DNA of 64,000 bases from Methanolacinia paynteri (GTDB lineage: Archaea; Halobacteriota; Methanomicrobia; Methanomicrobiales; Methanomicrobiaceae), in the NCBI RefSeq assembly GCF_000784355.1, contig NZ_KN360934.1, positions 1 through 64,000 on the forward strand, read 5' to 3'. The position numbers and the translations under genes were made by a program. The notes beneath the pieces are model-generated. The model was given only the letters and a program-made list of their open reading frames with translations, had not been told where the DNA came from and made no database searches. Positions 35,430-58,945 of this stretch are shown in pieces (position 1 is the stretch's first letter; each line of letters starts with the position of its first letter).

Positions 35430-36335
35430 ATGAGCCAAAATGATGACAATATAAAATACTGGAGCGATTGCTGGAAGGCGACGACTTCGGCAGTGCAGAC
35501 GGAACAGGATGAGGACAAAGTAGCTGAAAGGTGGAACCAGAGATGGGAGAAACGCCCGAAGAGGCCGGAAGGCAGCGGCCCCGGCGAAGAGATGATGAGG
35601 AGATCCTCCCTTGAAACGATCGGCTTTCTTGAAGAGAACGGCTTTAAAATTAAAGGTTCGAAGATCCTCGATATCGGGTGCGGCCCCGGTGTTCTTTCGA
35701 TTCCTCTCGCAAGACTCGGTGCCGAAGTTACATCGCTCGACATCTCGTCGACATCGCTTGAAAGAGTGGCGGAAGCGGCGGAGAAAGAATCCCTGGACGT
35801 TGAAACTATGGTGTGCTCCTGGTGGTCGGCGGATATAGACAAACTCGGCCTTAGGAACAAATACGATCTCGTAATCGCATCGAGGACTCCGTCAATTAAC
35901 GATGCTGAGACCCTTGAGAGGATGATGGCATGCTCGAAGAACCTCTGCTATTATTCCAGTTTCCTCAACGTAGGTGAGAACAGGGAGCATATGGAGATCA
36001 TGAAACTTCTTTCCGGCGAAGAGAAAGAACCAGAAGGAATGATGCGCAATCGCCATCACCAGGCGTATACCATGTTCTTCCCGTTTATGTACCTTTATTT
36101 CGCAGGCTATCGGCCCGTTGTAAAGATCAATCAAAAAGAGCGGGAAAAAGAAGTAAAATGGGAAGATGCCGCCGAAAAGGCGATGCGTTTCTTCGGACAC
36201 GGCCATGATCTCGACGATGAAACAAAAGATAAGGTCAGGAATTACTACCGGGATGCATCTAAAGAAGGGATGTACCGCAAAAGCCCCTCAGGTTGTCACG
36301 GTATGATGATATGGGATGTAAACGGGAGATTATAA
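35430..36335 (+). CDS. SAM-dependent class I methyltransferase, paralogue 1
   Basis: 301 residues. The SAM-binding motif ILDIGCGPG is at 79-87 with LDIS after the second strand. Family-specific features shared with paralogues at 39534 and 46370 are an N-terminal WxxCWK, a WWSADID segment, MACSKNLCYYS, FFPFMYLY and a C-terminal GMMIW. Methyl acceptor unknown; a small molecule is more likely than a macromolecule from the context. The ATG at 35430 follows GAGG at nine bases and is preferred over 35415. Confidence 0.85.
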   Translation: MSQNDDNIKYWSDCWKATTSAVQTEQDEDKVAERWNQRWEKRPKRPEGSGPGEEMMRRSSLETIGFLEENGFKIKGSKILDIGCGPGVLSIPLARLGAEVTSLDISSTSLERVAEAAEKESLDVETMVCSWWSADIDKLGLRNKYDLVIASRTPSINDAETLERMMACSKNLCYYSSFLNVGENREHMEIMKLLSGEEKEPEGMMRNRHHQAYTMFFPFMYLYFAGYRPVVKINQKEREKEVKWEDAAEKAMRFFGHGHDLDDETKDKVRNYYRDASKEGMYRKSPSGCHGMMIWDVNGRL

Positions 36336-36343
36336 CAGTTACC

Positions 36344-36352
36344 TTTTTTTTT
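36344..36352 (+). terminator. T9 terminator after methyltransferase 1
   Basis: An uninterrupted run of nine T, eight bases after the stop codon. Confidence 0.6.
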
Positions 36353-36568
36353 ATAATCAAAATCCGAATTCTTCAAAGATTTTTATCAATGATTTTTTGT
36401 AAAGTTCCGAATTTGATTATCCTGCGATTATACTCCTTTTTGAGTAGTGGTTGAAGCCTGAAAACCAGTAATCTGAGCTTATTCCAGCTGCTTTTGCAGG
36501 ATTTTAGGGATCAATGTTTCAAAATCGCCCTGGAAACAGATTTTTTAGGGATTAAAACCCAAACTGCG

Positions 36569-36616
36569 TCGATATAACGGTACGTCATCGCCCTTTTTGT
36601 ACGATTTTTATATCGA
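36569..36616. repeat. 9-base inverted repeat with TATA-like arms
   Basis: TCGATATAA (36569-36577) and TTATATCGA (36608-36616) are perfect complements; inside, two GTAC palindromes can pair. Each arm resembles a TATA box pointing outwards or inwards, so this may be a structured RNA or a promoter/operator. Confidence 0.4.
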
Positions 36617-36826
36617 TGGAAGAGGAGATCGTGGAATACGTGGCTTCTGTGTTGATTATCTAAACTTCAATTTGTGCGTATTTTTTTGTTATTCATGTTT
36701 TAATTTACAATTTAGTAATCCCCGAAAAAGTCGTACTCCTAAATTCTTTCACTGATAATTAGTTTTTGCGTGAAAATTTCATTGCCAAAAATGAAAAAGG
36801 GGGATTATTTTATTTGCTTATTATCC

Positions 36827-38029
36827 TCATACGAATGTCAAAAAAATTACATAAAATCCTATGAATGCCAGAATTATACCGAGAATTACCTTCATCTCCC
36901 TCCTGTGTTTTTCGCGGAATTCGTCTACGGCAGCCGGTGACAGTCCGGAATATACAAGTGCGACAATAACAACAAGCGGAAGAACGAACATCAGGTTATA
37001 CAGTACGAGATAGGGCATACCCTCCCGGAATGTCATCTCCGAGGACAGGAGACTCAGAACTGCAAGGTAGATCCCTCCCGTGCATGGAAGTTCGAAGACC
37101 CCTACAAGGACACCGAGTAAAAACGCAGCCGGAACAGATGCTTTTTTGATGATATTTCCGATAAATTCCTTTGATGATACGGGAATACGGAGTTTCACAG
37201 GAGTATCTTCGGCAATGCCTTCATTAATGCTGAGAATACCTGCAGTTACGGCAACAACACCGGCAATGATTGAAAAGACAAGTGAGGACCCTGTGAAGGA
37301 AACGATGCTCATGATTCCCAAACCGGCTAAGATATAGAATATGAATACTGCCGATATATATGAAAATCCGATTGCGAGGATCTTTTTCTTCGAACCTGCA
37401 GCCATGAGGGAGACCAGCAGGAACACAAGTACGGCAAAAGCGCACGGATTGATGCCGTCCAGGAGGCCGGCAGTCAGGACAAGGTACGGATTTAATTTTA
37501 ATTCCGGATGTTCGGAATATGATCCCGGATGACTGTGTTCGACAGGTTCGGTGTACCATCTCTTTTCATATTCCGCATCGGGTATGGAGCGGTTTTCAAC
37601 GCTCTTAAAAATATCTTCGATATTTGAATTGATCGCATCAAAACCCTCGATTACAATGGTGTCTCCCGTATATATTGCAGGGTATGAAGGAAAGGTGATA
37701 TTATGATGCTCGGCAAAATCGTATAAAGCTGTCAGGTTTTCGTCCGAAAGTTCAATATTATAATATGATACGCTGATGTTTGGGTGGTTTCCGGCAGTCT
37801 CTTCAATAACGGGCAGCGCCTTCAGGCATCCGCTGCAGTGAGTGCTGTAAAAAATGTAAACCGTCGTATTTGAATATGAAAAGTCGTGAGCAGTATTTTC
37901 TGCGGAAAAATTTACGGCACTGTTCCCGTTTGTAGAGCCGTAACCTGCATATGCCGGGCAGACGAGAATAAGCAGAAGAAATATGCTGCAGAAAACTACT
38001 GTCTGTTTGCTGTTTAATGTACCTTTCAT
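36827..38029 (-). CDS. Thioredoxin-fused DsbD/CcdA-type membrane protein
   Basis: Carries reducing equivalents across the membrane to extracytoplasmic thiols. 400 residues: signal peptide (about 1-28), an outside thioredoxin-like domain with CSGC (C65, C68), then about six transmembrane helices from residue 185. Two membrane cysteines lie in NPCAF and LPCTGG, matching the DsbD/CcdA pair. The N-terminal placement of the thioredoxin domain reverses the usual DsbD order. An AGTATTACT box lies about 60 bases upstream, like those of the secreted FmdE genes. Confidence 0.87.
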   Translation of the reverse strand: MKGTLNSKQTVVFCSIFLLLILVCPAYAGYGSTNGNSAVNFSAENTAHDFSYSNTTVYIFYSTHCSGCLKALPVIEETAGNHPNISVSYYNIELSDENLTALYDFAEHHNITFPSYPAIYTGDTIVIEGFDAINSNIEDIFKSVENRSIPDAEYEKRWYTEPVEHSHPGSYSEHPELKLNPYLVLTAGLLDGINPCAFAVLVFLLVSLMAAGSKKKILAIGFSYISAVFIFYILAGLGIMSIVSFTGSSLVFSIIAGVVAVTAGILSINEGIAEDTPVKLRIPVSSKEFIGNIIKKASVPAAFLLGVLVGVFELPCTGGIYLAVLSLLSSEMTFREGMPYLVLYNLMFVLPLVVIVALVYSGLSPAAVDEFREKHRREMKVILGIILAFIGFYVIFLTFV

Positions 38030-38085
38030 CCGGATCAGGATTCACAAATTGTTTAATGTAATATTTGGTACACAAATAGAAAAAA

Positions 38086-38094
38086 GTAATACTC
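38086..38094 (-). promoter_or_regulatory. AGTAnTACT box of the DsbD-like gene
   Basis: On the minus strand it reads AGTATTACTTTTTTCTAT, close to the TTTAGTAATACTTTTA box of the island genes, 57-65 bases before the start. Confidence 0.4.
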
Positions 38095-38263: not shown

Positions 38264-38279
38264 TTTAGTAATACTTTTA
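38264..38279 (+). promoter_or_regulatory. TTTAGTAATACTTTTA box, fmdE-like gene 1
   Basis: The 16-base box contains the palindrome AGTA-A-TACT overlapping a TATA-like ACTTTTAAT. Its core starts 151 bases before the ATG. The same box recurs before the genes at 43368 and 44743. Confidence 0.6.
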
Positions 38280-38417: not shown

Positions 38418-39503
38418 ATGAGGACTGGTATTTTGAAATTAGTTTCAGGCATATTGCTGTTGTGCCTGCTGATTGTTCCGGCGATGGCCGATACTGCGGA
38501 TGATTTCATGTTCAAAGAGCTTGGAGAGCGTGCTGCACTCCTTGCCATGGATGAGCTTGGATTCGGATACGGCGACCCTGATGTCTTGGTCTTGACAAAC
38601 GCCGGCCGTGCTGTTGTGGATGGTCAGCCGACGAATAAGGTACTATCGGGGATCACAAATATATCCGGCCTTTCAAACGGAGATGGAAACCTCTATACAA
38701 TAAACCGGGCCGACTGGAAAGCGCTCTGGATCTATTTCTATGACCGGGATACCGGAATGGGGCTCTATCTGGTTCCTGCAGACAGGTATTATACCATGAC
38801 AAAGGGTGAGATCATCAGTCTTCCGCTTGAGAATACCTTCTCGACCGCAGATCTCATAACAGGTGATATTTATATGATGCTTGAAGACACCGATGCGGGC
38901 AATGCAACGCAGGAGGCACTTGGCGGGAATGCATTCTCGCTTCTTTCCATTTCGAATTCGTGGGCATACGGTGCACCGTATGATCTCATGACCGTCGCGT
39001 CGCTTCATAACCATTTGTGCCCCGGAGTTCTCGGCGGATATATCCCTGCGAAATATGTCGAGGAAAAACTTCCTGCTGAAGAATCTGATTCATATACGGC
39101 AGTATTCACATCAGCCTCATGCAAACTCGATGCATTCCCGATAATGTGGGACATGACGCCGGGAAAGCAGAACCTGGCAATTGTGTCCGATGGTTTTACT
39201 GAGGATTCACAGGCCGCATTCACTGAAAAATATAATGCAACGCCGGCAGGTGTATTCGTCAGGTGGAACAGCGGAGAAAAATCGGGTGATGGAATCGTAA
39301 TTGCTTCTCTTCCGTCGACTTCACCTGCATATGAAGGCCCTTCGTGGGGTACAAAGGTCTATGGATCCGTTGAGAAGGTAAAATGTCTTGGCGATCTCGA
39401 CAGCATCTATACCACGATCTACGAGTTCAAGGTTGACAGTGATGAGCTTTCCGAACTTAAAAATCCTGAAAACAACCCCTATGAAGTCATAGGGATGATT
39501 TAA
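38418..39503 (+). CDS. Secreted FmdE-family protein, copy 1
   Basis: 361 residues with a signal peptide (about 1-24). The FmdE metal-site pattern is HNHLCPG (H197, H199, C201). FmdE is named from formylmethanofuran dehydrogenase operons; its function is unknown but metal binding is likely. The N-terminal half (about 30-180) is shared only with the copy at 43368 in this window. A strong GGAGG precedes the ATG. It lies 30 bases before methyltransferase 2. A metal-binding surface protein feeding a transporter is inferred. Confidence 0.85.
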   Translation: MRTGILKLVSGILLLCLLIVPAMADTADDFMFKELGERAALLAMDELGFGYGDPDVLVLTNAGRAVVDGQPTNKVLSGITNISGLSNGDGNLYTINRADWKALWIYFYDRDTGMGLYLVPADRYYTMTKGEIISLPLENTFSTADLITGDIYMMLEDTDAGNATQEALGGNAFSLLSISNSWAYGAPYDLMTVASLHNHLCPGVLGGYIPAKYVEEKLPAEESDSYTAVFTSASCKLDAFPIMWDMTPGKQNLAIVSDGFTEDSQAAFTEKYNATPAGVFVRWNSGEKSGDGIVIASLPSTSPAYEGPSWGTKVYGSVEKVKCLGDLDSIYTTIYEFKVDSDELSELKNPENNPYEVIGMI

Positions 39504-39533
39504 ACAACTACATTTATTTTTAAAGGTGTTAAT

Positions 39534-40430
39534 ATGGACAAAAACGATAATTTGGATAATTGGATCAAATGCTGGAAAGAATCGGCACGCAATGCCCAGA
39601 TTCCTTTTGATGAAAGCAGAACGGCTGAAATGTGGAATAAGAGGTCCGATACATTCGGTATGGATCGCAAAAGCGGCCGTATGCACAAGAGAACGGAAAA
39701 TATCTTTGCCATGTTGAAAGAAGCCGGATTTAATCCCGAGGGGGCAAAAGTCCTTGACATCGGGTGCGGACCCGGAACACTTGCAATTCCCCTTGCAAAG
39801 GCTGGAGCGGAAGTGACGGCGATTGACATTGCATCTGGTATGCTTGACAGGCTCAGGGCAACGGCAAAAGAGGAGAACCTTAACATTGATGCAAGGGAGC
39901 TTTCCTGGTGGACTGCGGATATTGATGACCTGGGATTCAGAAAACAGTTTGATCTCGTACTTGCGTCGATGACGCCAAGTATCAACGGTGTCGAAAGTTT
40001 TGAGAAGATGATATCCTGTTCGAAGGGTCTTTGCTATTACAGTAACTTTGTCCGGAGAGGACAGAATCCTGCACATGAGGAGATCAGAAAACTCCTTGAA
40101 CCGAAGGACGGAGCAAAAAGAGCAGAGGACCGTCCCGATCATCCCCCGCACGGTCATTCGCATGGACCGGGGAACGGATTATTCTTCCCTTTCATGTACC
40201 TCTATCTTAACGGGTACTGCCCTGATGTTAAAATCGTCAATTCAGAGCATATGATGGAGAAAGGTCCTGAAGATGCAGCTGAAAGAACCATTGATATGAT
40301 GAGCCGCGACAGAACCCTTGATGAAGAAACACAGGCAATTATCCGGAACTACTACAAAACTGCCTCTGAAAACGGAACCTACAGCCCAAGTTCATCTACA
40401 TACACCGGTATGATGGTCTGGAAAATTTAG
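39534..40430 (+). CDS. SAM-dependent class I methyltransferase, paralogue 2
   Basis: 298 residues; SAM motif VLDIGCGPG with AIDIA after it. It shares with the other two copies the N-terminal WxKCWK, SWWTADID, SCSKGLCYYS, FFPFMYLY and the C-terminal GMMVW. A histidine-rich insert (HPPHGHSHGPG) about residue 200-215 is special to this copy and could bind nickel or zinc. It is co-directional with and 30 bases from fmdE-like gene 1, so the two probably form one unit. Confidence 0.86.
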   Translation: MDKNDNLDNWIKCWKESARNAQIPFDESRTAEMWNKRSDTFGMDRKSGRMHKRTENIFAMLKEAGFNPEGAKVLDIGCGPGTLAIPLAKAGAEVTAIDIASGMLDRLRATAKEENLNIDARELSWWTADIDDLGFRKQFDLVLASMTPSINGVESFEKMISCSKGLCYYSNFVRRGQNPAHEEIRKLLEPKDGAKRAEDRPDHPPHGHSHGPGNGLFFPFMYLYLNGYCPDVKIVNSEHMMEKGPEDAAERTIDMMSRDRTLDEETQAIIRNYYKTASENGTYSPSSSTYTGMMVWKI

Positions 40431-40593: not shown

Positions 40594-41748
40594 ATGTTCT
40601 TGAAAGGAATTTTACCTGTGATGATAATTCTGCTCTTTACAGCCGCAATTCTCGTATCAGGCTGTTCTGAAAGTACTGCATATGTTTATAGCGGCGATGA
40701 AGAATCATCCGTAACGATAACCGACAGCTACGGCCGTGAAGTTACGATACCGTCCGATATCGACAGCATCGTATGCTCATCGGGAGGTACATGCACCCGG
40801 TATATCACATATATGGAATCGTCTGATCTTTTTATTGGTATTGAAAGCGGCGAAGAGGAGAACGAAACAAACAGGCCGTATGTACTTGTGAATCCTCAGT
40901 TTGCGGATCTTCCTGTCGCCAGCACCAAGAGTGACGGGGCGAACCTCGAACAGATAATGGTCCTGGACCCGGACGTGATATTCACGGCCGGAACTACAGT
41001 GACAAATGAGTCTGGTGAAACGGCCTCGCCTGCTGATATAATGCAGTCGAAGACAGGTATTCCCGTAGTTGCATTCTCGTCGGGATCATTCAGCGATGAT
41101 GAAAGCCTGGAAAAGATGTTTGCCGGATTCCGGATTATCGGCGAGGCTCTCGGAAAGGAGGAACGTGCTGAAGAACTGATCCGATATATCGAAGATTCAA
41201 AAGCCGACCTGATAGAGCGGACCGCAGATATTCCCGAATCCGAAATAAAAACTGCATTTATCGGAGGCCTTTCACACAGCGGAGCTCATGGTCTGATGTC
41301 CACAAGTTCACAGTATGTTCCCTTTGAATGGTGCAACGTTGCGAATATCGCTGCTACAGATTCCGACATATCCAGTTCCGACTTTTCGAAAGAGTCGTTG
41401 ATATACGCAGACCCGGATTACATCTTCATTGACGCCGGAACATTGAATGTAGAGGATGAGATCGGGGGATTTGAAGATATAAAAAGTACGGTCTTCTCTG
41501 ATCTAAAGGCAGTGAAAAGCGGGGATGTATATGCAACTCTTCCATATAACAGTCGGGCAACAAATTATGCCACCGTCCTTGCTGATGCATATTATATCGG
41601 AAAGACCGTCTATCCTGAGAAATTCGGGGACATAGATGCAGAAGAGAAGGCCGATGAGATCTATACGATGTTTGTCGGAGAGCCTGTTTTCGACAGGCTA
41701 AATGAAATCTGTAATAATCAGGGCTTTAAAAAAGTGAACCTTGAATAA
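40594..41748 (+). CDS. FecB/BtuF-like metal-chelate binding lipoprotein, copy 1
   Basis: 384 residues; lipobox LVSGC with C24. A Peripla_BP_2 fold is indicated by VTITDSYGREVTIP followed by a repeat of binding-protein segments and a C-terminal NYATVLADAYYIGKTVYPE. An SSGGTCTRY segment near residue 65 may be part of the ligand pocket. No permease is adjacent; the nearest fitting one is FecCD/FecE at 54003-55903. The next gene is a close paralogue. Confidence 0.87.
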   Translation: MFLKGILPVMIILLFTAAILVSGCSESTAYVYSGDEESSVTITDSYGREVTIPSDIDSIVCSSGGTCTRYITYMESSDLFIGIESGEEENETNRPYVLVNPQFADLPVASTKSDGANLEQIMVLDPDVIFTAGTTVTNESGETASPADIMQSKTGIPVVAFSSGSFSDDESLEKMFAGFRIIGEALGKEERAEELIRYIEDSKADLIERTADIPESEIKTAFIGGLSHSGAHGLMSTSSQYVPFEWCNVANIAATDSDISSSDFSKESLIYADPDYIFIDAGTLNVEDEIGGFEDIKSTVFSDLKAVKSGDVYATLPYNSRATNYATVLADAYYIGKTVYPEKFGDIDAEEKADEIYTMFVGEPVFDRLNEICNNQGFKKVNLE

Positions 41749-41854: not shown

Positions 41855-41897
41855 AATGATCACACTTTTTATTGAAAGTATCGAATATTATCATATT
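41855..41897 (+). promoter_or_regulatory. Duplicated promoter of binding lipoprotein 2
   Basis: It repeats the AATGATCACACTTTTTATT box of copy 1 at the same 43-base distance from the start, and the intervening bases are also similar without gaps. This shows that the promoter was duplicated with the gene. Confidence 0.6.
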
Positions 41898-43052
41898 ATG
41901 ATCTGGAAAGGAGTATTCCAGGGGGCAATTATTCTGCTTTTTGCAGCTGCAATTCTCGTATCCGGTTGTTCGGAGAGTACTGCATATGTTTATAGTGGCG
42001 ATGAAGAATCATCCGTAGTGATAACCGACAACTACGGGCGTGAAGTTACTGTCCCTTCTGAAATCGGCAGCATAGTATGCTCATCAGGAGGAACCTGTAC
42101 AAGATACATTACATATTTGGAGTCTTCAAACCTGCTTGCCGGTATTGAAAGCGGCGAAGAGGAAACTGAAACCAGCAGGCCTTATACCCTTGTGAATCCG
42201 CAGTTTGCAGATCTTCCGATCGTCAGCACCAGGGGCGACGGGGCGAACCTTGAACAGGTTATGCTCGTAAATCCACAGGTCGTTTTCATGGCAGGAACAA
42301 CGGTAACCAACGAGTCCGGCGAAACTGCTTCTCCTGCGGACGTCATGCAGACTAAGACGGGTATTCCCGTAATTGCATTCTCATCGGGATCATTCAACGA
42401 TGATGAAAGCCTGGAAGAGATGTTTGCGGGATTCAGGCTTTTGGGAGAGGCTCTAGGGAAAGAAGAACGTGCTGAGGAACTAATTGCATATATTGAAGAT
42501 TCGAAAGCCGACCTGATGCAACGGACTGCAGACATTCCCGACTCAGAACAAAAGACTGCATATATCGGGGGTTTATCAGCAGGAGGAGCACACGGTCTGA
42601 TGTCAACAAGTTCACGGTATGTTCCGTTCTCATGGTGTAATATTGTGAATGTCGCGGCCAATGATGCGGATATCTACAGTACTGATTTCTCGAAAGAATC
42701 ATTGATCTATGCAGATCCCGATTATATCTTCATAGATGCGGGAACACTTCGCGTAGAGGATGAGATCGGTGGATTCGATGACATAAAAAGCCAGATTTTC
42801 TCCGAACTAAAGGCTGTGAAAAACGGGGATGTTTACTCGACTCTGACCTATAACTACCGTGCCACAAATTATGCCACAGTCCTTGCCGATGCTTATTATG
42901 TGGGAAAAACGGTTTATCCTGAAAGGTTTGAGGATATAGATCCAAAAGAGAAAGCCGACGAGATCTATACGATGTTTGTCGGTGAGGCGGTCTTTGACAG
43001 GCTTAATACGATATCCAACAACCAGGGGTTCGAAAAGATTCCTCTTGAGTAG
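41898..43052 (+). CDS. FecB/BtuF-like metal-chelate binding lipoprotein, copy 2
   Basis: 384 residues, equal in length to copy 1 and very similar throughout, including lipobox C24 and SSGGTCTRY. The frame is open to an ATG at 41856, but that ATG lies inside the conserved promoter box, so 41898 is the start. Differences are spread along the protein, so both copies seem functional and may have diverged in ligand or expression. Confidence 0.88.
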   Translation: MIWKGVFQGAIILLFAAAILVSGCSESTAYVYSGDEESSVVITDNYGREVTVPSEIGSIVCSSGGTCTRYITYLESSNLLAGIESGEEETETSRPYTLVNPQFADLPIVSTRGDGANLEQVMLVNPQVVFMAGTTVTNESGETASPADVMQTKTGIPVIAFSSGSFNDDESLEEMFAGFRLLGEALGKEERAEELIAYIEDSKADLMQRTADIPDSEQKTAYIGGLSAGGAHGLMSTSSRYVPFSWCNIVNVAANDADIYSTDFSKESLIYADPDYIFIDAGTLRVEDEIGGFDDIKSQIFSELKAVKNGDVYSTLTYNYRATNYATVLADAYYVGKTVYPERFEDIDPKEKADEIYTMFVGEAVFDRLNTISNNQGFEKIPLE

Positions 43053-43367
43053 ACCCTTTTGCTTATCCTGAAAACAGGGTATTCAACCTAATTTTCTATT
43101 TATTCCGATTGAATGAAAATGAACTGGAATTAGTTCATGCCATGATGCTGGTTATTTTTCCGTCTTGAGTAGTATGATATTTATCAACTGTTTATAATTA
43201 TTAAATCAAGTTGTAAATTGGAAAAGCATTTAGTAATACTTTTATTAACTAATGTATTATTATTGAAAGGGCTTATTGGATATTTTCATCAGCTCCGCAC
43301 ATGCGATTCAGTTCTGTGAATGCCCGCTGGCATCCGGTTCGAATCGGTTTTAAATGAGATGATTGTT
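43053..43367. other. Leader region of fmdE-like gene 2
   Basis: About 315 bases with a TTTAGTAATACTTTTA box at 43229-43244 and a presumed leader of about 120 bases. CCGGTTCGAATCGG at about 43335 looks like a T-arm but no tRNA can be built. No gene seen. Confidence 0.5.
43229..43244 (+). promoter_or_regulatory. TTTAGTAATACTTTTA box, fmdE-like gene 2
   Basis: Identical 16-base box to that at 38264; the palindrome core starts 136 bases before the chosen ATG. Confidence 0.6.
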
Positions 43368-44450
43368 ATGAAAGAGGATTGGTTTAAAGCAATATTCTGT
43401 CTGGTTGTAGCAGTTGTGCTATGTACACAGATAGTGGCAGCATCGCCTGATGCAGATCAAATGGAGGCTCTGGGGGAATATGCAGCCACAATTGCAATGG
43501 ATGAACTTGGATTTGATTACGGCAGCCCGGACGTTGTTGTCCTGACGGATGCCGGCCGTGTTCTGGTGGACGGTCAGACCACAGAAAAGATCATATCCGG
43601 GATTACCAAAGTATCGGGACTGCAAAACAGTGACAACACGCTGTTCCAGATTAACCGTGCAGAATGGAATGACCTCTGGTTCTATTTTTACGATAAAGAC
43701 ACAGGAAAAGGTCTCTATCTTGTGCCGAAAGAGAGCTTCTTCAATATGAGCGCAGCAGCGGTCGAATCACTGTCTCCTGAGGATGCATTCTCGACCGTTT
43801 CTCTGGTCACAGGCGATATCTACCAGATGCTTGAAGATACCGATGCAGGCAATGCAACACAGAAGGCTCTTGGAGGCAATGCATTCTCGCTGGTTTCACT
43901 ATCAAACGGCTGGGCATATGGTGCTCCGTATGATCTTATGTACGCGGCATCGCTTCACAATCACTTCTGCCCCGGAGTATCGAGTGGATACATTCTCGTA
44001 AAATACGTCGAGGAAAACCTGCCGCTGACCGATGGAACATCGTATACGGTAATCTCAAATCCCACCTGGTGTAAAGAGGATTTATACCCGACCCTCTGGG
44101 ATATGACACCCGGAAAGGGCGGAGTGGCTTCTTCGGTTGTATTTACGGATGAGGATGAGGAGTATCTCACCAATGAGTATGGTATCCGCCCTGCAGGTAT
44201 CTTCGTCCTCTGGGACAGGAAGGCTAACAACGGTACAGGCCTCGCACTTGGATTCCAGTTCGACGAATCGGAATGGACCGGCCCTTCCTGGGGTCAGAAG
44301 GTTTATCAAACCGCGGATATGGTGCAGAATCTCGATCATCCCGAAGATTATGTTAAAGTCATGAAGGAATTCACGGTGGATTCCGGGATGCTCTCCGAGC
44401 TGAAAGATCCGCTGAATAATCCCTATGAAGTAATCGGAATGATGCAGTAA
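43368..44450 (+). CDS. Secreted FmdE-family protein, copy 2
   Basis: 360 residues from the ATG at 43368, which places the signal peptide at the N-terminus (upstream in-frame ATGs at 43320 and 43359 would bury it). It has the metal-site pattern HNHFCPG (about residues 198-204) and the same layout as copy 1, ending in NNPYEVIGMM. It precedes the Nik/Opp importer operon by about 290 bases. Role inferred: surface metal capture or delivery. Confidence 0.85.
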   Translation: MKEDWFKAIFCLVVAVVLCTQIVAASPDADQMEALGEYAATIAMDELGFDYGSPDVVVLTDAGRVLVDGQTTEKIISGITKVSGLQNSDNTLFQINRAEWNDLWFYFYDKDTGKGLYLVPKESFFNMSAAAVESLSPEDAFSTVSLVTGDIYQMLEDTDAGNATQKALGGNAFSLVSLSNGWAYGAPYDLMYAASLHNHFCPGVSSGYILVKYVEENLPLTDGTSYTVISNPTWCKEDLYPTLWDMTPGKGGVASSVVFTDEDEEYLTNEYGIRPAGIFVLWDRKANNGTGLALGFQFDESEWTGPSWGQKVYQTADMVQNLDHPEDYVKVMKEFTVDSGMLSELKDPLNNPYEVIGMMQ

Positions 44451-44742
44451 CGGTTACCATATTCTTTAAATTACTCTTTTTTAGATTAAACTCTGGAGGC
44501 ATGCCCTGATAGTAAAAGTAAGGCAAATTTAGATATTTTTTATTTCAATCTTAAATTATTTCCATATCTTTATGGCAATTGTGTTAATAAACAATCCATT
44601 TAGTAATACTTTTATTGTACAAAATATCAATATTTCAAAGAATCATTGATCTCACTTTTACTACTTTGATAGAGAAGAGTGTATTATGGTCTGAATTCTT
44701 AAATGCTGATTAAAAAAGGGGTTATTGCTAAAAGGTGTTATC
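44451..44742. other. Leader region of the Nik/Opp importer operon
   Basis: About 290 AT-rich bases: a T6 run soon after the stop of fmdE-like gene 2, then the third TTTAGTAATACTTTTA box and a leader of roughly 115 bases. No gene seen. Confidence 0.5.
44599..44614 (+). promoter_or_regulatory. TTTAGTAATACTTTTA box, Nik/Opp importer operon
   Basis: Third copy of the same box. Its core starts 141 bases before the ATG at 44743, nearly the spacing seen at the two fmdE-like genes. Confidence 0.6.
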
Positions 44743-47251: not shown

Positions 47252-47255
47252 TGTG

Positions 47256-49165: not shown

Positions 49166-49167
49166 AT

Positions 49168-50997: not shown

Positions 50998-51083
50998 AGG
51001 ATCTGGAGTTTCCACCAGGTTTCCGCTATTGATCCGTTTGTTTTGCAGGATTTGTACTTTAGATAAATATATGGAGTTTTGAT

Positions 51084-52079
51084 ATGGGTGTTATTGAAAT
51101 AAGGGGTCTGACTAAAAAATTCGATGAACTTGTTGCAGTTGATGATGTATCTCTTTCCGTTGAAAGAGGGGAATTATTCGGACTTCTGGGCCCGAACGGT
51201 GCAGGAAAGACGACTATAATAAATATGCTCACCACACTTCTCAAACCGACGTCAGGAACTGCGGAGATTGCAGGTTATGATATTGGAAAAGATCCCGCAA
51301 GTGTGCGCAGAAATATCGGCATAGTCTTCCAGGACACTTCACTGGACTTGGGCCTTACGGGTATGGAAAATCTTGAATTTCATGCAATGATGTATGATAT
51401 TAAGTCCGAAGAACGTAGAAAAAGAATTGATGAACTGCTGGCTGTTGTAGGTTTAACCGATAAGGCCGGCACACTTGTCGAATATTATTCCGGCGGGATG
51501 AAACGGAGGCTCGAGATTGCCCGCGGTCTGATACATCGTCCTGAAGTATTATTTCTTGACGAACCTACACTCGGGCTCGATGCACAGACGCGTAGGAAGA
51601 TCTGGGATTATATCAAAAGGCTCAACGATGATTTTTCAACGACGATTATCCTGACTACACATTACATGGAAGAAGCCGATTATCTCTGCGACAGGATTGC
51701 AGTCATCGATAACGGAAATATAATAGCCCTCGACACCCCGGTAAACCTCAAAAACCGCCTGGAGGGCGAGAAGGTTTTACTGGATGTCGACATGCAAGCG
51801 GCCGGAACCATCGTTTCCGTTCTTAAGGATAAGTCCTGGGTCAGGGGTCTTGAATGCGAGGATGGCTCAATCTCGCTGACAATTATCGACGGCAGTGTGA
51901 ATATCCCTGAAATATTCAGGCTTGCCTATTCGGCAGGCGTCGGTATCAATTCGGTAAGCCTGCATAAACCAAGCCTGGAGGACGTGTTCATTCAGCTTAC
52001 CGGCTCTTCTATCAGGGAGGAATCGGGTGACAGGAAGTCTGCTATGAGGGAGAGAAGGAGAAGGAGGATGATGAGATGA
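51084..52079 (+). CDS. DrrA-type ABC exporter ATPase
   Basis: 331 residues; Walker A GPNGAGKTT near 36-44, signature YSGGMKRR, Walker B VLFLDEPTLGLD, then THYMEEADYLCDRIAVID, usual for daunorubicin-resistance-type (DrrA/CcmA) exporters. The C-terminal DUF4162-like part ends in a very basic tail (RERRRRRMMR). It overlaps the permease by four bases. Substrate unknown; position 86 bases after an importer suggests a related compound. Confidence 0.92.
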   Translation: MGVIEIRGLTKKFDELVAVDDVSLSVERGELFGLLGPNGAGKTTIINMLTTLLKPTSGTAEIAGYDIGKDPASVRRNIGIVFQDTSLDLGLTGMENLEFHAMMYDIKSEERRKRIDELLAVVGLTDKAGTLVEYYSGGMKRRLEIARGLIHRPEVLFLDEPTLGLDAQTRRKIWDYIKRLNDDFSTTIILTTHYMEEADYLCDRIAVIDNGNIIALDTPVNLKNRLEGEKVLLDVDMQAAGTIVSVLKDKSWVRGLECEDGSISLTIIDGSVNIPEIFRLAYSAGVGINSVSLHKPSLEDVFIQLTGSSIREESGDRKSAMRERRRRRMMR

Positions 52080-52840
52080 TCCAGTTTTCCGCTGTATATG
52101 TCCTCTGGACGAGAGAAATGATCAAATATCTCCGGGCAAAATCACGTGTTGTCGGTGCCATTGCTATGCCTGCATTTATGCTTATATTTCTGGGTCTCGG
52201 ATTTCGCAGGGTTGAAGTACCGGGTCTTCCGGGATCAATCGGCTACTTCCAGTACCTTGTCCCGGGAATTATCGGCATGACTCTCCTGTTCACATCCTCC
52301 TATTCAGGCATGAGCGTTATCATGGACCGCCAGTTCGGATTTTTAAAGGAGGTTATGGTAACTCCGGCAAGCAGGGAATCCATCGTTCTCGGAATGATTG
52401 TGGGAGGCGCAACTACTTCGATAATTCAGTCCCTCCTTATGATGATTCTGTCTGTATTCATCGGATTCGAAATTCCTGCCATGCACCTGATTGCAGCATC
52501 GATACTTGTAATGTTCCTGATTACAGTGATATTCATAAGCGTGGGCCTTATCCTTTCTTCATTCATGAAGGATTTTCACGGTTTCAATACGATAATCAAC
52601 TTCATCGTATTCCCGCTGTTCCTGCTTTCAGGGGCCCTCTTCCCTGTTGCAAATCTTCCGGCAGTCATCCAGGTATTCTCATACCTTGACCCGCTGACTT
52701 ACGGGGTGGACGCCCTGAGAGGAATACTTATCGGGTATTCCCAGTTCTCAGTCGTCTTCGATCTTCTGATTCTCATACCTGTTTCAATAGCGATGGTTAT
52801 TGTCAGCAGCTATAGCTTCCGGAGAAGTGAGGCAGTATAA
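52076..52840 (+). CDS. ABC-2 type exporter permease (DrrB-like)
   Basis: 254 residues, about six helices, with the ABC-2 pattern FGFLKEVMVTPASRESIVLG and FPLFLLSGALFPVANLP and the DPLTYGVDALRG ending. Forms the membrane part of the exporter with the preceding ATPase. Direction out of the cell is inferred from the family. Confidence 0.92.
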   Translation: MIQFSAVYVLWTREMIKYLRAKSRVVGAIAMPAFMLIFLGLGFRRVEVPGLPGSIGYFQYLVPGIIGMTLLFTSSYSGMSVIMDRQFGFLKEVMVTPASRESIVLGMIVGGATTSIIQSLLMMILSVFIGFEIPAMHLIAASILVMFLITVIFISVGLILSSFMKDFHGFNTIINFIVFPLFLLSGALFPVANLPAVIQVFSYLDPLTYGVDALRGILIGYSQFSVVFDLLILIPVSIAMVIVSSYSFRRSEAV

Positions 52841-53232
52841 GAAAACGGGATGCGGAATAGCAGGATCATTCTGAGAAATCTTTATTTTAAGAGCAGGAGA
52901 GCAATATTTATCTTTCACCAGCTGGTTCAAAATCGCTTTGACATCGATCGTACATCCGAAATATGTGCGCGTATCCGGCAGAACGACTTTGGTTAATATT
53001 CAGTAACTATGGATTGTGTATCCTGTTCCCACAAATAAAATTTGCATAAATGCCTGTTTCCTGAAAAATGCCGTTTATTGCTATCTTAATAAATCTGATT
53101 TATCTCATTTATTAGCGGCTGCAAATAATAAAACTTAATTTTCGTAATGTTTCATCATATTAATAATGAATTTTTTCATACCTAATGCTATCAGAAATTG
53201 GTATGTGTTTACATTTGAGGAGGATATTTATA
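52841..53232. other. Intergenic region before the slipin gene
   Basis: 392 bases. A 48-codon frame at 52850-52996 begins soon after the permease stop; its product is basic and unrecognised. From about 53100 the DNA is AT-rich and likely carries the slipin promoter. A strong GAGGAGGA ribosome binding site lies before 53233. Confidence 0.45.
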
Positions 53233-53991
53233 ATGGGTATTATTGAATTAATTCTGTTGTTTATTGTTGTGATTGTTATTCTGTGTCTCTCTTTTAAGAT
53301 AACCCGGCAATATGAGAGAGCAGTCATATTCCGCCTTGGAAAACTTGCCGGTCAGAGGGGGCCCGGTATGTTTCCGATATTATTTCCTATCGACAGGATT
53401 GTACGTGTAGACCTTCGTGTCAGGCAGCTCGACGTTCCCAAACAGACGATCATCACGAAAGACAATATCAGTGTAGATGTCGACGCGATCATCTATTATC
53501 ATGTGACGGATGCATGCCAGGCGATCAATGAGGTTGAAGATTACGAGGCAGCAACGTCACTCATTGCCCAGACTACACTTAGGGATGTCCTCGGCCAGAA
53601 TGAGCTGGACACAATCCTTTCCGATCGCGAATCCCTGAACCAGGAGATCCACGGTGAGATTGAGAATGTGACATCCCCGTGGGGAGTAAATGTGAATCTC
53701 GTCACGATCAGGGATGTTACGGTCCCTGAGAATATGCTCCGTGCAATTGCCCGTCAGGCAGAGGCTGAAAGGGAGAAGAGAGCACGTATTATACTTGCCG
53801 ATGGAGAACAGCAGGCCTCAGAAAGGATGTGTGAGGCGGCAAAACTCTATGAGAAGACTCCTGCCGCCCTGAAACTCCGCGAATTCCAGACCCTGACCGA
53901 GATTGCGAAGGAGAGAAACCTCATCGTTGTTACAAACGGTGCGGATAATCTTGGTACGACAGCAGGATACGTTAAGGCACTGGATCGCTGA
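53233..53991 (+). CDS. Slipin / stomatin-like SPFH protein
   Basis: 252 residues. One N-terminal transmembrane helix, then an SPFH/band 7 domain with YERAVIFRLGKL, GPGMFPILFPID and RVDLRVRQLDVP, typical of slipins that organise membrane microdomains. The usual partner NfeD protease-like gene is not adjacent. The ATG at 53233 has GAGGAGGA at a good distance; the frame runs further upstream without one. It sits between two ABC systems. Confidence 0.92.
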   Translation: MGIIELILLFIVVIVILCLSFKITRQYERAVIFRLGKLAGQRGPGMFPILFPIDRIVRVDLRVRQLDVPKQTIITKDNISVDVDAIIYYHVTDACQAINEVEDYEAATSLIAQTTLRDVLGQNELDTILSDRESLNQEIHGEIENVTSPWGVNVNLVTIRDVTVPENMLRAIARQAEAEREKRARIILADGEQQASERMCEAAKLYEKTPAALKLREFQTLTEIAKERNLIVVTNGADNLGTTAGYVKALDR

Positions 53992-54002
53992 GAGGCAGGT
54001 TA

Positions 54003-55115
54003 ATGAGAGGATCTGTCGCGAGGAAGGCGCCCTCTACCAAGAGAACCAGGGCCGGTAAGATCAGCAAAATCGAGGAGGAACAGTCACTTTCTGTCCTGAA
54101 AAAAATCCTCTTCATCCTGCTCCTTGCGGTAATACTCGTTGTAGCTTCGGGGATTATAATAACAATCGGGCCCATGCCCATCACGGTTCCCGAAGTCTAC
54201 TCGATTCTTATTAACAGGATTGTCCCCGGTATATTTTCCATTGAGAAATCTCTGGATAACGTCGTATGGGAGATCCGTTTCCCACGCATAGCCGGGGATA
54301 TAATCGTGGGCCTGGGCCTTGGAATCTGTGGATGCGTAATGCAGGCGGTTCTGAAGAACCCTCTCGCAAGTCCGTTTACTCTCGGGATATCGGCTGGCGC
54401 ACAGTTTGGGGTGTCTGTTGCAGCCATTTTCGGGATAACCATACTTGGCGGTCCTTATTTCCTTGTAGGTAATGCATTTATATTTGCCCTGCTTTGCTCT
54501 GCGGTCATCATAGCACTCTCCGGGATGAAGGGGGCAACCTCGGAGATGCTGATTCTTGCCGGTATTGCGGTAAACTATCTCTTCCAGGCGATGAATCAGA
54601 TCTTCAGCTTTGTTGCAAACGAGGATCAGCGGCTCCTGATGACGATGTGGGGAATGGGAGGACTTTCGGATTTAAACTGGAATAGTATCCTTTTCCTGGG
54701 CGTTATCACGATGATCTGTGTTCCGCTTCTCTACATGAAGGCGTGGGATCTTAATCTTATGACCGTAGGAGATGAGAGTGCAAAGAGTATGGGTGTTGAT
54801 GCAGGACATACCCGGATATATATCATGGTGGTATCGAGTTTCTATGTCGCAGTAATGGTGGCATTTATAGGAATGATTGGGTTCATCGGGCTGGTAGCCC
54901 CGCATATGGGCCGCATGATTCTCGGAAGCGATCACAGGTACCTGATTCCTGCATCAGGAGGGCTTGGTGCAATAATACTTCTGGTAGCCGATGCCGTCTC
55001 TCTTAATCTGTTGTCTCCGATAGTAATCCCGACGAGTGTGACTATGTCGATAATAGGCGTTCCTTTCTTCCTCTATCTCATACTCAGGGGCAGAAAGAAG
55101 GAGTACTGGACATGA
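54003..55115 (+). CDS. FecCD-family ABC permease (second system)
   Basis: 370 residues. A basic N-terminal extension of about 30 residues precedes the first helix. Family landmarks: VLKNPLASPFTLGISAGAQ, GDESAKSMGV and GMIGFIGLVAPHMGR. About ten helices. It overlaps the ATPase gene by four bases. No binding protein is adjacent; the lipoproteins at 40594 and 41898 are the likely partners. Confidence 0.93.
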   Translation: MRGSVARKAPSTKRTRAGKISKIEEEQSLSVLKKILFILLLAVILVVASGIIITIGPMPITVPEVYSILINRIVPGIFSIEKSLDNVVWEIRFPRIAGDIIVGLGLGICGCVMQAVLKNPLASPFTLGISAGAQFGVSVAAIFGITILGGPYFLVGNAFIFALLCSAVIIALSGMKGATSEMLILAGIAVNYLFQAMNQIFSFVANEDQRLLMTMWGMGGLSDLNWNSILFLGVITMICVPLLYMKAWDLNLMTVGDESAKSMGVDAGHTRIYIMVVSSFYVAVMVAFIGMIGFIGLVAPHMGRMILGSDHRYLIPASGGLGAIILLVADAVSLNLLSPIVIPTSVTMSIIGVPFFLYLILRGRKKEYWT

Positions 55116-55903
55116 TCATCAAACTGGCCGTAAATAATCTGCATTTCAGCTATGACAGTGTCGAAATACTGGACGGGCTCTCCCTGAATATTGGTGACGG
55201 AAAGATAGTGAGCATACTCGGTCCGAACGGTTCCGGGAAATCGACATTGATCAAGTGCATTGATCACATCCTTATCCCGCAGCAGGGAAAGATTCTCATA
55301 GACAGGAAAGATATATCCAAAATGGGCCGAATGGAGCTTGCAAAGAACGTGGCATACGTTCCGCAGAGCACGATCCGGACTTTTCCCAATACGGTGTTTG
55401 ATGTCGTTCTTATGGGAAGGCGTCCGTACCTCGGGTGGCGCGAGGATGAACGGGATAAGGACGAGGTCTGGGAAGTGCTGAGGCTGCTTGGAATGGAGAA
55501 TCTTGCTATGAACCTGTTTACCGAATTGTCCGGCGGGCAGCAGCAGAAGGTTCTCATCGCCCGTGCCCTTGTGCAGGATACGGGCCTTATTCTGCTTGAT
55601 GAGCCGACCAGCAATCTGGATATCTGGCACCAGATGGACGTAATGGAAGTGCTGAGAAAGCTTGTCAAAAAGCTTGGAATGACGGCGATAATCGCCATAC
55701 ATGATCTAAATGTAGCATCAAGATATTCGGATGTCATTGTGATGATGAAGAGAGGAAAGATTGTTGCCGCAGGTGAGCCCGAGGTGGTCATAAACAGTGA
55801 CAATCTTGAAAAAGTTTATAATATCAATGCAAATGTCCGCGTCTCGGATGGTATCCCGTATATAATCCCGCTTTCCAGGCTTCCTTTGAAACAGGTGAAG
55901 TAA
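55112..55903 (+). CDS. FecE/BtuD-type ABC importer ATPase (second system)
   Basis: 263 residues; Walker A GPNGSGKST near 36-44, signature LSGGQQQK, Walker B ILLDEPTSNLD, and a C-terminal region like that of the ATPase at 27347 (EPEVVINSDNLEKVYNINA). The QQQK signature is common in this family. Works with the permease at 54003. Confidence 0.93.
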   Translation: MIIKLAVNNLHFSYDSVEILDGLSLNIGDGKIVSILGPNGSGKSTLIKCIDHILIPQQGKILIDRKDISKMGRMELAKNVAYVPQSTIRTFPNTVFDVVLMGRRPYLGWREDERDKDEVWEVLRLLGMENLAMNLFTELSGGQQQKVLIARALVQDTGLILLDEPTSNLDIWHQMDVMEVLRKLVKKLGMTAIIAIHDLNVASRYSDVIVMMKRGKIVAAGEPEVVINSDNLEKVYNINANVRVSDGIPYIIPLSRLPLKQVK

Positions 55904-55998
55904 CTTTCAAAATAAATTCAACACGAAATTATGGTGGTTTAGTCAGTGAGCATAATGAAAATCCTTAGTGAAAGGAACAGTATGGTTCTGATATATTA

Positions 55999-57855
55999 AT
56001 GACGGCAGAAAGTATGACGGCCGATCCGACGGTCGGCCTGAAATCCAGAATCACCGGCAGGATAAACGCCAGCAGGGAGAGTTTCAAAAGATTTATCGAG
56101 ATTGCCGATTTCTATAGCCACGGTTATAAGCTGTATCTCCTTGCCATGCTTATCCTGAGCGTTCTTCTCGGTCTGATGGAGACATTCCAGATAGTGCTGC
56201 TCTACCCGATAATGAATGCCACAATCGATTTTCAGGGGCAGGAGATCGCGATATTCGAACCGCTCTACAACTTTGTAAGAGGCATCTCCAACCTTCCGGA
56301 TATTGTCCTTTTCTCTCTCCTTTTCATCCTACTCGTAGTCCTCACCTTCATCGTATCCATGGTATACAGGTACATGTCCCTTTATGTGACCAGAAAGGTG
56401 ATAACGAGGACAAAGAGAACCGTCTTTGAAAAACTCGTCAAAAACGACTACCAGTATTACGTCGAGAACAAACGCGGAGAGATTATTTACAGTGTAGTTA
56501 CCGCCCCTTCCCAGGTCCGTCGTTTTCTCGAGACGATCACTTCAATGGTCTCAGACGGCATCATAGTATTTACCATCCTGGGAACGCTCTTCTTTATATC
56601 CACGACTGCGGTTGCAATATTACTCGCAGGAGCGTTTATTTTCATAAGTGTCGTCAGGGTAGTGGGCAGAAAATTCTCCTTCCGCCTCGGTCATCTCCAG
56701 ATGAGATCCATGCAGGGCGAAAACGAAGTAATAAGCGGATACATCCAGGGTCTCAGGCAGATCAGGTCGGTCTCGGGCGATGCTTACTGGCAGAAGCAGT
56801 ACAACGAAGCCCTCGATAAATTATGGGACAGGTACATAAAACTCAGTTTCTTCAGGATGCTCCCCGGAACCACCCTGCAGTTCATGTTCTTCATCGGGCT
56901 CGCAATTCTTGTAATCGTTCTTTATTATCTCTACCAGGAGGATTTCCTCTATATCATACCGCTGATGGGAACGTTTGTCTTCTCCGCGATGAAGGTCATA
57001 CCCCGTCTTGCATCGCTGAGCAACCGATATATGGATGTCATGGACAACTGGCCCAACCTCGAGACGATCTTCGACTTCCTCAACGATACGAAGTATCACA
57101 ATATAGTGGACGGATCGAGGAATTTCGATCTCCTTAAATCCGATGTAGTTCTTGAAAACGTCTTCTTCTCTTATTATAAAGGCCAGGAACTCATCAAAGG
57201 GGTTAACCTCACCATAAAGAGAAAGAAGATAACCGCACTCGTAGGTCATTCCGGCTCGGGCAAGTCGACTGTAGTCTCTCTTCTCCTGAGATATTACGAC
57301 GTGGATGAAGGCAGGATTCTGTTAAACGGCTGTGACCTTCGTGATTACCGGAAAGAATCTTTCCTGAAAAGGGTAGGGTACGTTAGCCAGGACACCTTCA
57401 TATACAACGCCTCAGTGCGTGAAAATATATCTTTTGGAGTCGACTATACCGACGAAGAGATTATCGAAGCGGCGAAAAAAGCGAATATCCATAATTTCAT
57501 TGCAGGACTTCCCGAAGGCTACAATAGCATAGTCGGGGATCAGGGGATTAAGCTTTCGGGTGGCGAGAAGCAGAGAGTTGCAATCGCAAGGGCTCTCGTG
57601 CGCAATCCCGAGCTTCTTGTTCTTGACGAGGCTACGAGCAACCTCGACAACGAATCTGAGGCCATTGTCCAGGACTCTATCAACCATATATCCGAAAACA
57701 TCACGACGTTCATCATCGCCCACAGGCTCTCGACGATAAGAAAGGCAGACACAATCTATGTGATGAGCCTGGGAAGAATAGTCGAGAGCGGCACCCATGA
57801 TGAGTTAATAGCGGCAAAAGGGCTCTATTATGATCTCTATGAGTCGGAAGGATAG
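55999..57855 (+). CDS. MsbA-type ABC exporter (fused membrane and ATPase domains)
   Basis: 618 residues: an exporter-type membrane domain with six helices (about 45-340) followed by an ATPase with Walker A GHSGSGKST, signature LSGGEKQR and LLVLDEATSNLD, and the H-loop IAHRLST. A homodimer is expected. No ribosome binding site is seen before the ATG. Substrate may be a lipid, peptide or small molecule; the neighbouring importer and flavoprotein suggest it belongs to the island. Confidence 0.92.
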   Translation: MTAESMTADPTVGLKSRITGRINASRESFKRFIEIADFYSHGYKLYLLAMLILSVLLGLMETFQIVLLYPIMNATIDFQGQEIAIFEPLYNFVRGISNLPDIVLFSLLFILLVVLTFIVSMVYRYMSLYVTRKVITRTKRTVFEKLVKNDYQYYVENKRGEIIYSVVTAPSQVRRFLETITSMVSDGIIVFTILGTLFFISTTAVAILLAGAFIFISVVRVVGRKFSFRLGHLQMRSMQGENEVISGYIQGLRQIRSVSGDAYWQKQYNEALDKLWDRYIKLSFFRMLPGTTLQFMFFIGLAILVIVLYYLYQEDFLYIIPLMGTFVFSAMKVIPRLASLSNRYMDVMDNWPNLETIFDFLNDTKYHNIVDGSRNFDLLKSDVVLENVFFSYYKGQELIKGVNLTIKRKKITALVGHSGSGKSTVVSLLLRYYDVDEGRILLNGCDLRDYRKESFLKRVGYVSQDTFIYNASVRENISFGVDYTDEEIIEAAKKANIHNFIAGLPEGYNSIVGDQGIKLSGGEKQRVAIARALVRNPELLVLDEATSNLDNESEAIVQDSINHISENITTFIIAHRLSTIRKADTIYVMSLGRIVESGTHDELIAAKGLYYDLYESEG

Positions 57856-57997
57856 ATGGAAATCTTCTTTTATGCAATCAGGATGAATACACATAATATT
57901 CAGATATTATTTTCAGGGAATCCTCTCAGAAAATAACAGTCTTTTGCTCTTGATTTTTTGGAGGATTTCTACAAGGCCGGTTTTAATTATTTTTACT

Positions 57998-58945
57998 ATG
58001 AGGGTGCCTGAAAAACCCTTAGTTCTCCAAAACTTTAACCGGATCAAAGGTGAAACAATCCCTGTGCCTTTCCCGTCCGAAATAATCAGGGAACACCGTA
58101 TAGACGGTACATATTCACTGGTCCTGAAAAAAGAGGATCTGGAGTCCCTTTATCCCCGGATGTTCAGGTATAAACTTGCTCTTCTTGAAAACTACAGAAT
58201 AGTCGCCCAGTTCAGGACAAATACCTATGAATATACCCCGGTCATTCCCATAAAAGCCGAATCAGTTGCTTATGAACACTTTGAATACTGGACGGAAAGA
58301 ATAACCGCTGGACATGAAAAGTTCGTAGAATATCTCAAAAGGCAGGAGAGACTCCGGAAACACGTCTATAAAAATGTCCCTTCTCCGGGAAACGATGCCG
58401 TTATCATCCAGGGAAGCTCACGTCCCGACGGGAACTGTGCCGTTATGGCATCATGGATCATGGAAAAACTGCTCTTAATGGGAATGAAGCCTGCTGTTTT
58501 TTATCCGTCCGATATGTACATCCTCCCCTGTACCGGTTGCTACCAGTGCTTTAATTACGGCCGCTGTGTTTTTATCGATGACATGGCAGGGCTTTACGGT
58601 GCAGTTAAAGGCGCTTCATTTGTGGCTGTCTGTTCTCCGGTATACACTAACACTGTTCCTGCACCTCTCAAGGCTGTATTCGATCGTTTTCAGGCCTATC
58701 ATGCGATGACTTCTCTGGGTAATATCAGGCATTCTGTATCGGGATTATTTCTTTCGACTGCCGGGAGGAAGGGATTGGATAATTTCAGCCATATCGTCCC
58801 GGTGGCAGATGCTTTCATGGAGATATCGGGGATCAAAAAGAAAGGCCAGGTTCTTGTAGACAACTTGGATCAAGTATATGATGTAAGATCGATTCCCGGG
58901 CTGAGGGAAAGAGTTGAAAAAAAAGTGGATGAATGCCTGAAATGA
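57998..58945 (+). CDS. Iron-sulfur flavoprotein (Isf-like NADPH-FMN reductase) with N-terminal extension
   Basis: 315 residues from the ATG at 57998. The C-terminal flavodoxin-like domain starts near residue 132 with the FMN loop QGSSRPDGN and the Isf cysteine motif CX2CX2CX5C (C178, C181, C184, C190), the 4Fe-4S site of Methanosarcina Isf. The N-terminal 130 residues are an added domain I do not recognise. Upstream in-frame codons lack a start with a ribosome binding site. Electron transfer to a metal complex or oxidant is inferred. Confidence 0.85.
   Translation: MRVPEKPLVLQNFNRIKGETIPVPFPSEIIREHRIDGTYSLVLKKEDLESLYPRMFRYKLALLENYRIVAQFRTNTYEYTPVIPIKAESVAYEHFEYWTERITAGHEKFVEYLKRQERLRKHVYKNVPSPGNDAVIIQGSSRPDGNCAVMASWIMEKLLLMGMKPAVFYPSDMYILPCTGCYQCFNYGRCVFIDDMAGLYGAVKGASFVAVCSPVYTNTVPAPLKAVFDRFQAYHAMTSLGNIRHSVSGLFLSTAGRKGLDNFSHIVPVADAFMEISGIKKKGQVLVDNLDQVYDVRSIPGLRERVEKKVDECLK

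Follow-up and report, generated by a model that had tools for sequence, protein, structure and literature searches.

The window, a 64,000-nucleotide stretch of DNA from the archaeon Methanolacinia paynteri, corresponds to contig C35 of a 2.79-Mb genome. Between 35.4 and 58.9 kb it carries three class I S-adenosylmethionine (SAM) methyltransferases (MTs), two secreted FmdE proteins, two FecB-like lipoproteins and a Nik/Opp importer, together with FecCD/E genes, two exporters, a DsbD-like protein and an iron-sulfur flavoprotein. This inventory comes from Pfam and NCBIfam matches and from translations of mechanically called open reading frames, with signal sequences and lipoboxes judged by eye, and every gene that an earlier note on this DNA had named was found where it had been placed. 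We lean towards the view that the island is a co-regulated uptake system for a transition metal in chelated form, with cobalt and/or nickel as the likeliest candidates, in which a cytoplasmic MT modifies the ligand of the metal. The genes and promoter motifs central to this view are listed below; other genomes carry G-numbers (G015, same genus; G022, same family; G143, another family) and loci carry L-numbers.

35415..36335, + strand: MT1, cytoplasmic class I SAM methyltransferase (Pfam Methyltransf_25, E 3.5e-12)
38264..38279, + strand: motif TTTAGTAATACTTTTA, exact, between the DsbD-like gene and FmdE1 (sequence match)
38418..39503, + strand: FmdE1, secreted (PF02663, E 1.9e-14)
39534..40430, + strand: MT2, SAM methyltransferase, 30 bases after FmdE1 (Pfam; AlphaFold model, predicted local distance difference test (pLDDT) 86.5)
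40594..41748, + strand: FecB-like binding lipoprotein (PF01497, E 9e-18)
41856..43052, + strand: FecB-like binding lipoprotein, tandem duplicate (nearest PDB entry 2etv)
43229..43244, + strand: motif, exact, before FmdE2; an inverted half-site follows (GTAATAC-N14-GTATTAT)
43320..44450, + strand: FmdE2, secreted, start ATG probably 43368 (PF02663, E 3.8e-10)
44599..44614, + strand: motif, exact, before the Nik operon; conserved upstream of the corresponding operons of Methanosarcina, G022 and G019
44725..46392, + strand: SBP5, an SBP_bac_5 (NikA/CntA-like) binding lipoprotein (PF00496, E 5e-92)
46370..47251, + strand: MT3, SAM methyltransferase embedded in the Nik operon (Pfam; same position in Methanosarcina operons)
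47253..48239, + strand: NikB-like permease (NCBIfam Opp2B, 1e-71)
48236..49165, + strand: NikC-like permease (NCBIfam Opp4C, 3e-63)
49168..50997, + strand: fused NikDE ATPase with two ABC_tran stretches (Pfam)

The three MTs are indeed paralogs, as had been claimed, related to one another at 44-48% identity, and a fourth MT lies elsewhere in the genome (C29:63739). In a tree of 90 MTs each window MT has its closest relatives in other genera and not among its neighbouring paralogs, which indicates that the paralogs are old; MT1 has an ortholog in the island of G022. The SAM motif is intact (motif I, LDIGCGPG) and is accompanied by an acidic residue, D98, after strand 2, and the fold, modelled with high confidence (pLDDT 86.5), matches class I enzymes in the PDB, where a structure search also revealed a resemblance to small-molecule methyltransferases. 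Trp34, Trp125 and Cys167 are invariant in the alignment and Trp296 is almost invariant, and no signal sequence is visible. Viral carriage of the MT was considered and set aside, the search having given two weak partial matches only.

Both FmdE proteins score above the PF02663 gathering cut-off of 22.9 bits (54.3 and 40.4 bits), and a further copy is present in the genome at C40:180532. The metal ligands of the HxHxC-plus-Cys site are kept, with H197, H199, C201 and C235 invariant in six aligned sequences and spaced as described for the family, in which the HxHxC site of 2glz holds a mixture of zinc and nickel and most members were reported in 2010 to adjoin metal-ion transporters (PMC2954224). 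The window proteins thus share with the family represented by PDB entries 2glz and 2gvi the common FmdE core, the ligands and the metal-transporter neighbourhood, but differ in being secreted and in having about 190 extra N-terminal residues, for which a good-confidence model found no PDB match. The constant pairing of FmdE with one MT family is a further difference, being absent from the account in PMC2954224. In the window MT2 starts 30 bases behind FmdE1, so that the direct pairing noted earlier at 38418-40430 stands. Such direct adjacency, seen in archaea and in Firmicutes, could also mean that the MT methylates a protein partner, either FmdE or the binding protein, as a regulatory mark. 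We consider this highly improbable, because FmdE has a signal sequence here and the MT has none, which places the paired proteins in different compartments, and because many MT loci are without FmdE. As the two are paired and yet lie on opposite sides of the membrane, their common partner is more likely to be a metal complex than FmdE itself.

The Nik/Opp importer is complete in one operon, comprising a binding protein, two permeases and two ATPase domains. Since the end of SBP5 overlaps the start of MT3 by 23 bases, and NikB starts 1 base past the MT3 stop, SBP5-MT3-NikB-NikC-NikDE form one tight operon. The earlier note had described an importer operon at 43368-50997 led by FmdE and with an embedded MT; the embedded MT is real, whereas FmdE2 is probably not the leader of the Nik transcript, because a gap of 274 bases separates it from SBP5 and a separate copy of the promoter motif stands before each of them (at 43229 and at 44599). 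The layout of binding lipoprotein, two permeases and two ATPase domains is that of NikABCDE and of the staphylopine transporter CntABCDF, and the nearest solved relatives of SBP5 are 5yh5 (the binding protein of a nickel ABC transporter), the NikZ-type 4oet and NikA. Unlike those systems, the window operon has an MT gene embedded in it, and its proteins fall far under the cut-offs of the nickel and staphylopine NCBIfam models (212 of 393 bits for the nickel-specific TIGR02294; 197 of 800 bits), which places the importer in the superfamily only. The two FecB-like lipoproteins are a tandem pair and are 80% identical.

The recurrence of MT, FmdE and importer genes together in other genomes, left by the earlier note as a check, was found across phyla and above control levels. 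Named genomes were searched with an MT alignment of four sequences, and 232 genomes belonging to the same order with one of 35 sequences; of these 232, 33 matched at E 1e-40. The neighbourhood was defined as 7 kb from the MT, and 54 archaeal and 28 bacterial MT loci were compared, respectively, with 40 regions placed at round coordinates in a subset of these archaeal genomes and with 37 loci of other methyltransferases; neighbours were labelled by sequence searches with the window proteins, and contigs from metagenome-assembled genomes are incomplete. Some importer gene is present at 38/54 archaeal MT loci against 4/40 controls and at 19/28 bacterial loci against 9/37, FmdE at 15/54 against 1/40 and 11/28 against 1/37, and NikABC at 19/54 against 0/40 and 14/28 against 5/37, while the bacterial Fec and PBP2 enrichments are singly not significant (p 0.12). 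Pfam confirmed FmdE, TonB, CbiM, flavin reductase and DUF364 among representative neighbours. FmdE-MT-nikABCDE is found in varying order from Firmicutes (FmdE-MT-SBP5-NikB-NikC-NikDE) to methanogens (SBP5-MT-NikB-NikC-NikDE-ABC2 in Methanosarcina); Desulfosporosinus and others combine the MT with PBP2-FecCD-FecE, and in Sporomusa acidovorans the MT, a TonB receptor and a secreted FmdE stand side by side. To account for the Nik context along the tree of MTs, 14 changes are required, at least nine of them forced by well-supported branches, and the pairing of MT and Nik has therefore been gained or lost repeatedly. We found no description of the module in the openly licensed literature on FmdE with NikABC or on methanogen metallophores. 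DUF364 proteins (PF04016), putative heavy-metal chelation enzymes that are encoded with metal ABC transporters and have been proposed to act on chelators (PMC2954201), have genes near 12/54 archaeal MT loci, but their fold arrangement differs and none was seen in the window.

Other neighbours of the MT were noted along the way. A flavin reductase-like gene (PF01613), possibly a metal-complex reductase, adjoins it in several methanogens (L168 5792-6403, L169, L170, L171, L175, L176, L177 and L034), and three tandem CooC/MinD-like ATPase genes lie beside it in two (L160 11541-14071 and L163 7998-10588). At L043 (1039-7373) a second Nik-type operon, under a separate cobalamin riboswitch, has another kind of class I methyltransferase (Methyltransf_11) as its last gene, which gives the impression that methyltransferases joined operons of this type on more than one occasion. 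In Epsilonproteobacteria, remote homologs of the MT (L069, L071, L073 and L075, around 10000) have ModA/B/C-like genes as neighbours, and the same loci hold TonB receptors and a ModD-like gene of quinolinate-phosphoribosyltransferase type.

The island genes share a promoter motif, the 16-mer TTTAGTAATACTTTTA, which was picked by eye from intergenic gaps. The genome has three exact copies of it, all of them in the island, before FmdE1, FmdE2 and SBP5; when up to one mismatch is allowed, G022 has five sites, every one of them inside its island, before FmdE, MT and SBP5 genes. Counts with two mismatches are no higher than for a reversed-pattern control, so that only near-exact sites are informative. 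Because the motif was chosen by eye, an independent test by means of a model is important. Built from 12 sites and applied to 10 genomes, the model returned at its top ranks the 12 training places and one ortholog of a training operon; outside the training set, the FmdE gene of G015 ranked first in its genome (E 3.4e-4), the third FmdE gene of the present genome (C40) came next after the island (E 0.0145), and the Nik operon of L039 was the best site in its genome (E 0.096). A second, inverted half-site is suggested 14 bases on, where none of 2000 shuffles scored as high. The motif with its inverted half-site resembles the arrangement of NikR sites, and the suggestive half-sites make NikR a candidate regulator: in Methanosarcina G232, nikR too is preceded by AGTAATAC and a second half-site in inverted orientation, and related sequences lie before three other nikR genes. 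The 12-site model does not detect the nikR promoters. Half-sites similar to AGTAATAC, and resembling the island motif, are seen just after the TATA-like box of nikR in Methanosarcina L257, L256, L262 and L263.

A chance gathering of unrelated transporters and methyltransferases in a variable region would agree with the situation in G015, which is without the island and retains only one MT, the ortholog of that on C29, and one FmdE, so that the region is accessory. Recurrence across phyla and the presence of the motif before the same genes in several genera speak against coincidence, which the neighbourhood enrichment and the motif model already disfavour and which we find barely credible.

Compared with riboswitch-controlled bacterial operons, the archaeal island carries a DNA motif in place of a riboswitch, and an Rfam search for structured RNA in the window gave no match. 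Among the other loci, Rfam places cobalamin riboswitches upstream of the MT/Nik operons of L043, L047, L051 and L048 and near the MT in L042, L054 and L062, and a molybdenum cofactor (Moco) riboswitch ahead of FecCD-FecE-PBP2-MoeA-MT in L076. None of these riboswitches was found at ten other MT-homolog loci, and neither a cobalamin nor a Moco riboswitch at nine loci of other methyltransferases in other taxa. Together, the shared promoter motif and the riboswitches point to metal uptake.

The remaining features of the region are as follows.

21442..23511, - strand: ChlI/D-type subunit, putative cobaltochelatase (TIGR02442, above cut-off)
23635..27333, - strand: CobN-type chelatase subunit (NF004646, above cut-off)
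27347..30492, - strand: BtuD/BtuC/BtuF-like importer, FecBCD superfamily (profile matches)
32349..35334, + strand: four archaeal type IV pilin-like genes, immediately upstream of MT1 (PF07790 for the first two)
36827..38029, - strand: DsbD/CcdA-like membrane protein with an N-terminal thioredoxin-like domain (NCBIfam DsbD 9e-6 and ResA 7e-4, both well under the cut-off)
51084..52079, + strand: ABC-2 exporter ATPase, DrrA type (TIGR01188, above cut-off)
52076..52840, + strand: ABC-2 exporter membrane protein, DrrB type (TIGR01247, below cut-off)
53185..53991, + strand: SPFH/Band 7 protein (PF01145)
54003..55115, + strand: FecCD-type permease (profile match)
55112..55903, + strand: FecE-type ATPase (translation, gene order, homologs)
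55999..57855, + strand: MsbA-like ABC exporter (profile match)
57944..58945, + strand: FMN_red flavoprotein (PF03358; C-x2-C-x2-C-x5-C motif from the translation)

The limits formerly given to the island, 35430-58945, hold for its content but not for its extent, since the recurring unit also takes in 21442-30492, 32349-35334 and 15424-19339, the last with TadA/TadC. Much of the same set is found in G022, including pilins, TadA/TadC and ChlI/D, and G143 has several MTs, two FmdE, Nik, Fec, SPFH and exporter genes on one contig, plus pilins, TadA/TadC and ChlI/D; CobN is present in G022, and none was found in the parts of G143 examined. The DsbD-like gene is divergent from FmdE1 over one promoter motif, an arrangement repeated in G022, and the SPFH-FecCD-FecE block is found again in L028, L030, L163, L183 and L255. 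This recurrence in G022 and G143, together with absence from G015, indicates that the island is accessory and probably transferable. A type IV pilin set with TadA/TadC accompanies the metal island in several genera (13987-20191 and 32349-35334 in the window; L155, L160, L028 and L031). Pilins lie within 7 kb of 9/54 archaeal MT loci and of 0/40 control regions, and in G022 a pilin gene stops 16 bases ahead of an MT gene.

The CobN and ChlI/D genes beside the island agree with cobalt. The block at 21442-30492 resembles the operon-2 type of Dehalobacter, in which a FecBCD/BtuCDE-type importer accompanies CobN and chelatase subunits, and in that organism an operon with CobN and FepBCD/BtuCDE-type genes under a cobalamin riboswitch is raised 346-fold on corrinoid starvation (PMC4285132); the MT-FmdE-Nik module is not found in PMC4285132. 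It could be argued from this that the MT acts, with CobN, ChlI/D and BtuFCD, on a corrinoid or another tetrapyrrole and not on a small chelator, the more so as cobalamin riboswitches precede MT operons, CobN and ChlI/D lie beside the island here and in G022 (ChlI/D also in G143), and ChlI/D follows the MT in Sporomusa L048. We regard this as improbable: the Moco riboswitch of L076, with MoeA, and the ModABC neighbours of the remote homologs do not fit it, and CobN/ChlID are seldom neighbours of the MT, being within 7 kb of it at just 1/54 loci in archaea and 1/28 in bacteria.

The ABC-2 exporter raises the question of a metallophore. A gene for its membrane protein is near 16/54 archaeal MT loci and 0/40 controls, ABC-2 genes directly follow NikDE here and in Methanosarcina, and the binding protein is closest to CntA/NikA, as expected if the cell made its own ligand, the MT modified it, the ABC-2 or MsbA-like exporter sent it out and the cell then regained it as a metal complex. 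Such a role in metallophore maturation seems doubtful to us, since the ABC-2 membrane protein gene is found at 0/28 bacterial MT loci, so that export is not a general step, since no ligand-synthesis genes were seen, and since nicotianamine synthase is absent: the nicotianamine-synthase-like PF03059 had no match in four genomes that have either the island or its Nik-MT module, whereas the positive control matched in Methanosarcina acetivorans. On that absence an opine/nicotianamine metallophore was set aside; opine dehydrogenase (PF10100) gave no match, but none was obtained in control genomes either. Of the metallophore route first suggested for this DNA (modify, export, recover, reduce), the link to metal uptake is borne out by the gene association, the motif and the riboswitches, while the order of steps is one among several, and the making of a metallophore fits no better than the release of metal from a chelate that has been brought into the cell.

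In the metal-uptake system that we favour, the metal complex would be captured at the cell surface by the lipoproteins, SBP5 and the FecB-like pair, and carried inward by the Nik/Opp and Fec-type importers. FmdE would bind the metal through its His-x-His-x-Cys and additional Cys, outside the cell here and inside in most bacteria. The cytoplasmic MT would methylate the organic ligand, either weakening its grip on the metal or resetting it, and in archaea the ABC-2 exporter may expel the methylated product. Because bacterial modules have no ABC-2 exporter, we would favour methylation for release over methylation for export, although we infer both. Several points weigh against this scheme. The regulatory clues conflict as to the metal, with cobalamin and Moco riboswitches in bacteria and a NikR-like arrangement in archaea; CooC-like genes, a possible sign of nickel, are not enriched near the MT (5/54 against 5/40 control regions), which rules out inferring nickel from them; and at roughly one MT locus in three no importer was recognised in the neighbourhood. 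No ligand-synthesis gene was identified, and assigning a substrate from the MT fold was abandoned, as the many generic class I and small-molecule methyltransferase matches indicate no single one. Moreover, the bacterial control loci come from other taxa, and the p-values offer no more than guidance, given the many gene classes tested and the non-independence of related genomes. Most simply, MT and FmdE would act for several metals that share a similar ligand chemistry.

The MT seems to have a place in metal uptake that has been overlooked. A wider and distinctly tentative idea is that this family, with FmdE, might represent a general and unrecognised step of metal acquisition in archaea and bacteria, in which methylation of the ligand would free cobalt, nickel or molybdenum/tungsten from imported chelates, and which in some methanogens would lie within a larger transferable island with a type IV pilus-like system. 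Little is known about cobalt and nickel acquisition by methanogens and acetogens living in sulfidic habitats, and the function of FmdE is unsettled despite its link to metal transporters reported in 2010. A fixed MT partner, a small regulon defined by a motif and riboswitches that name candidate metals turn these matters into testable questions in tractable hosts such as Methanosarcina.

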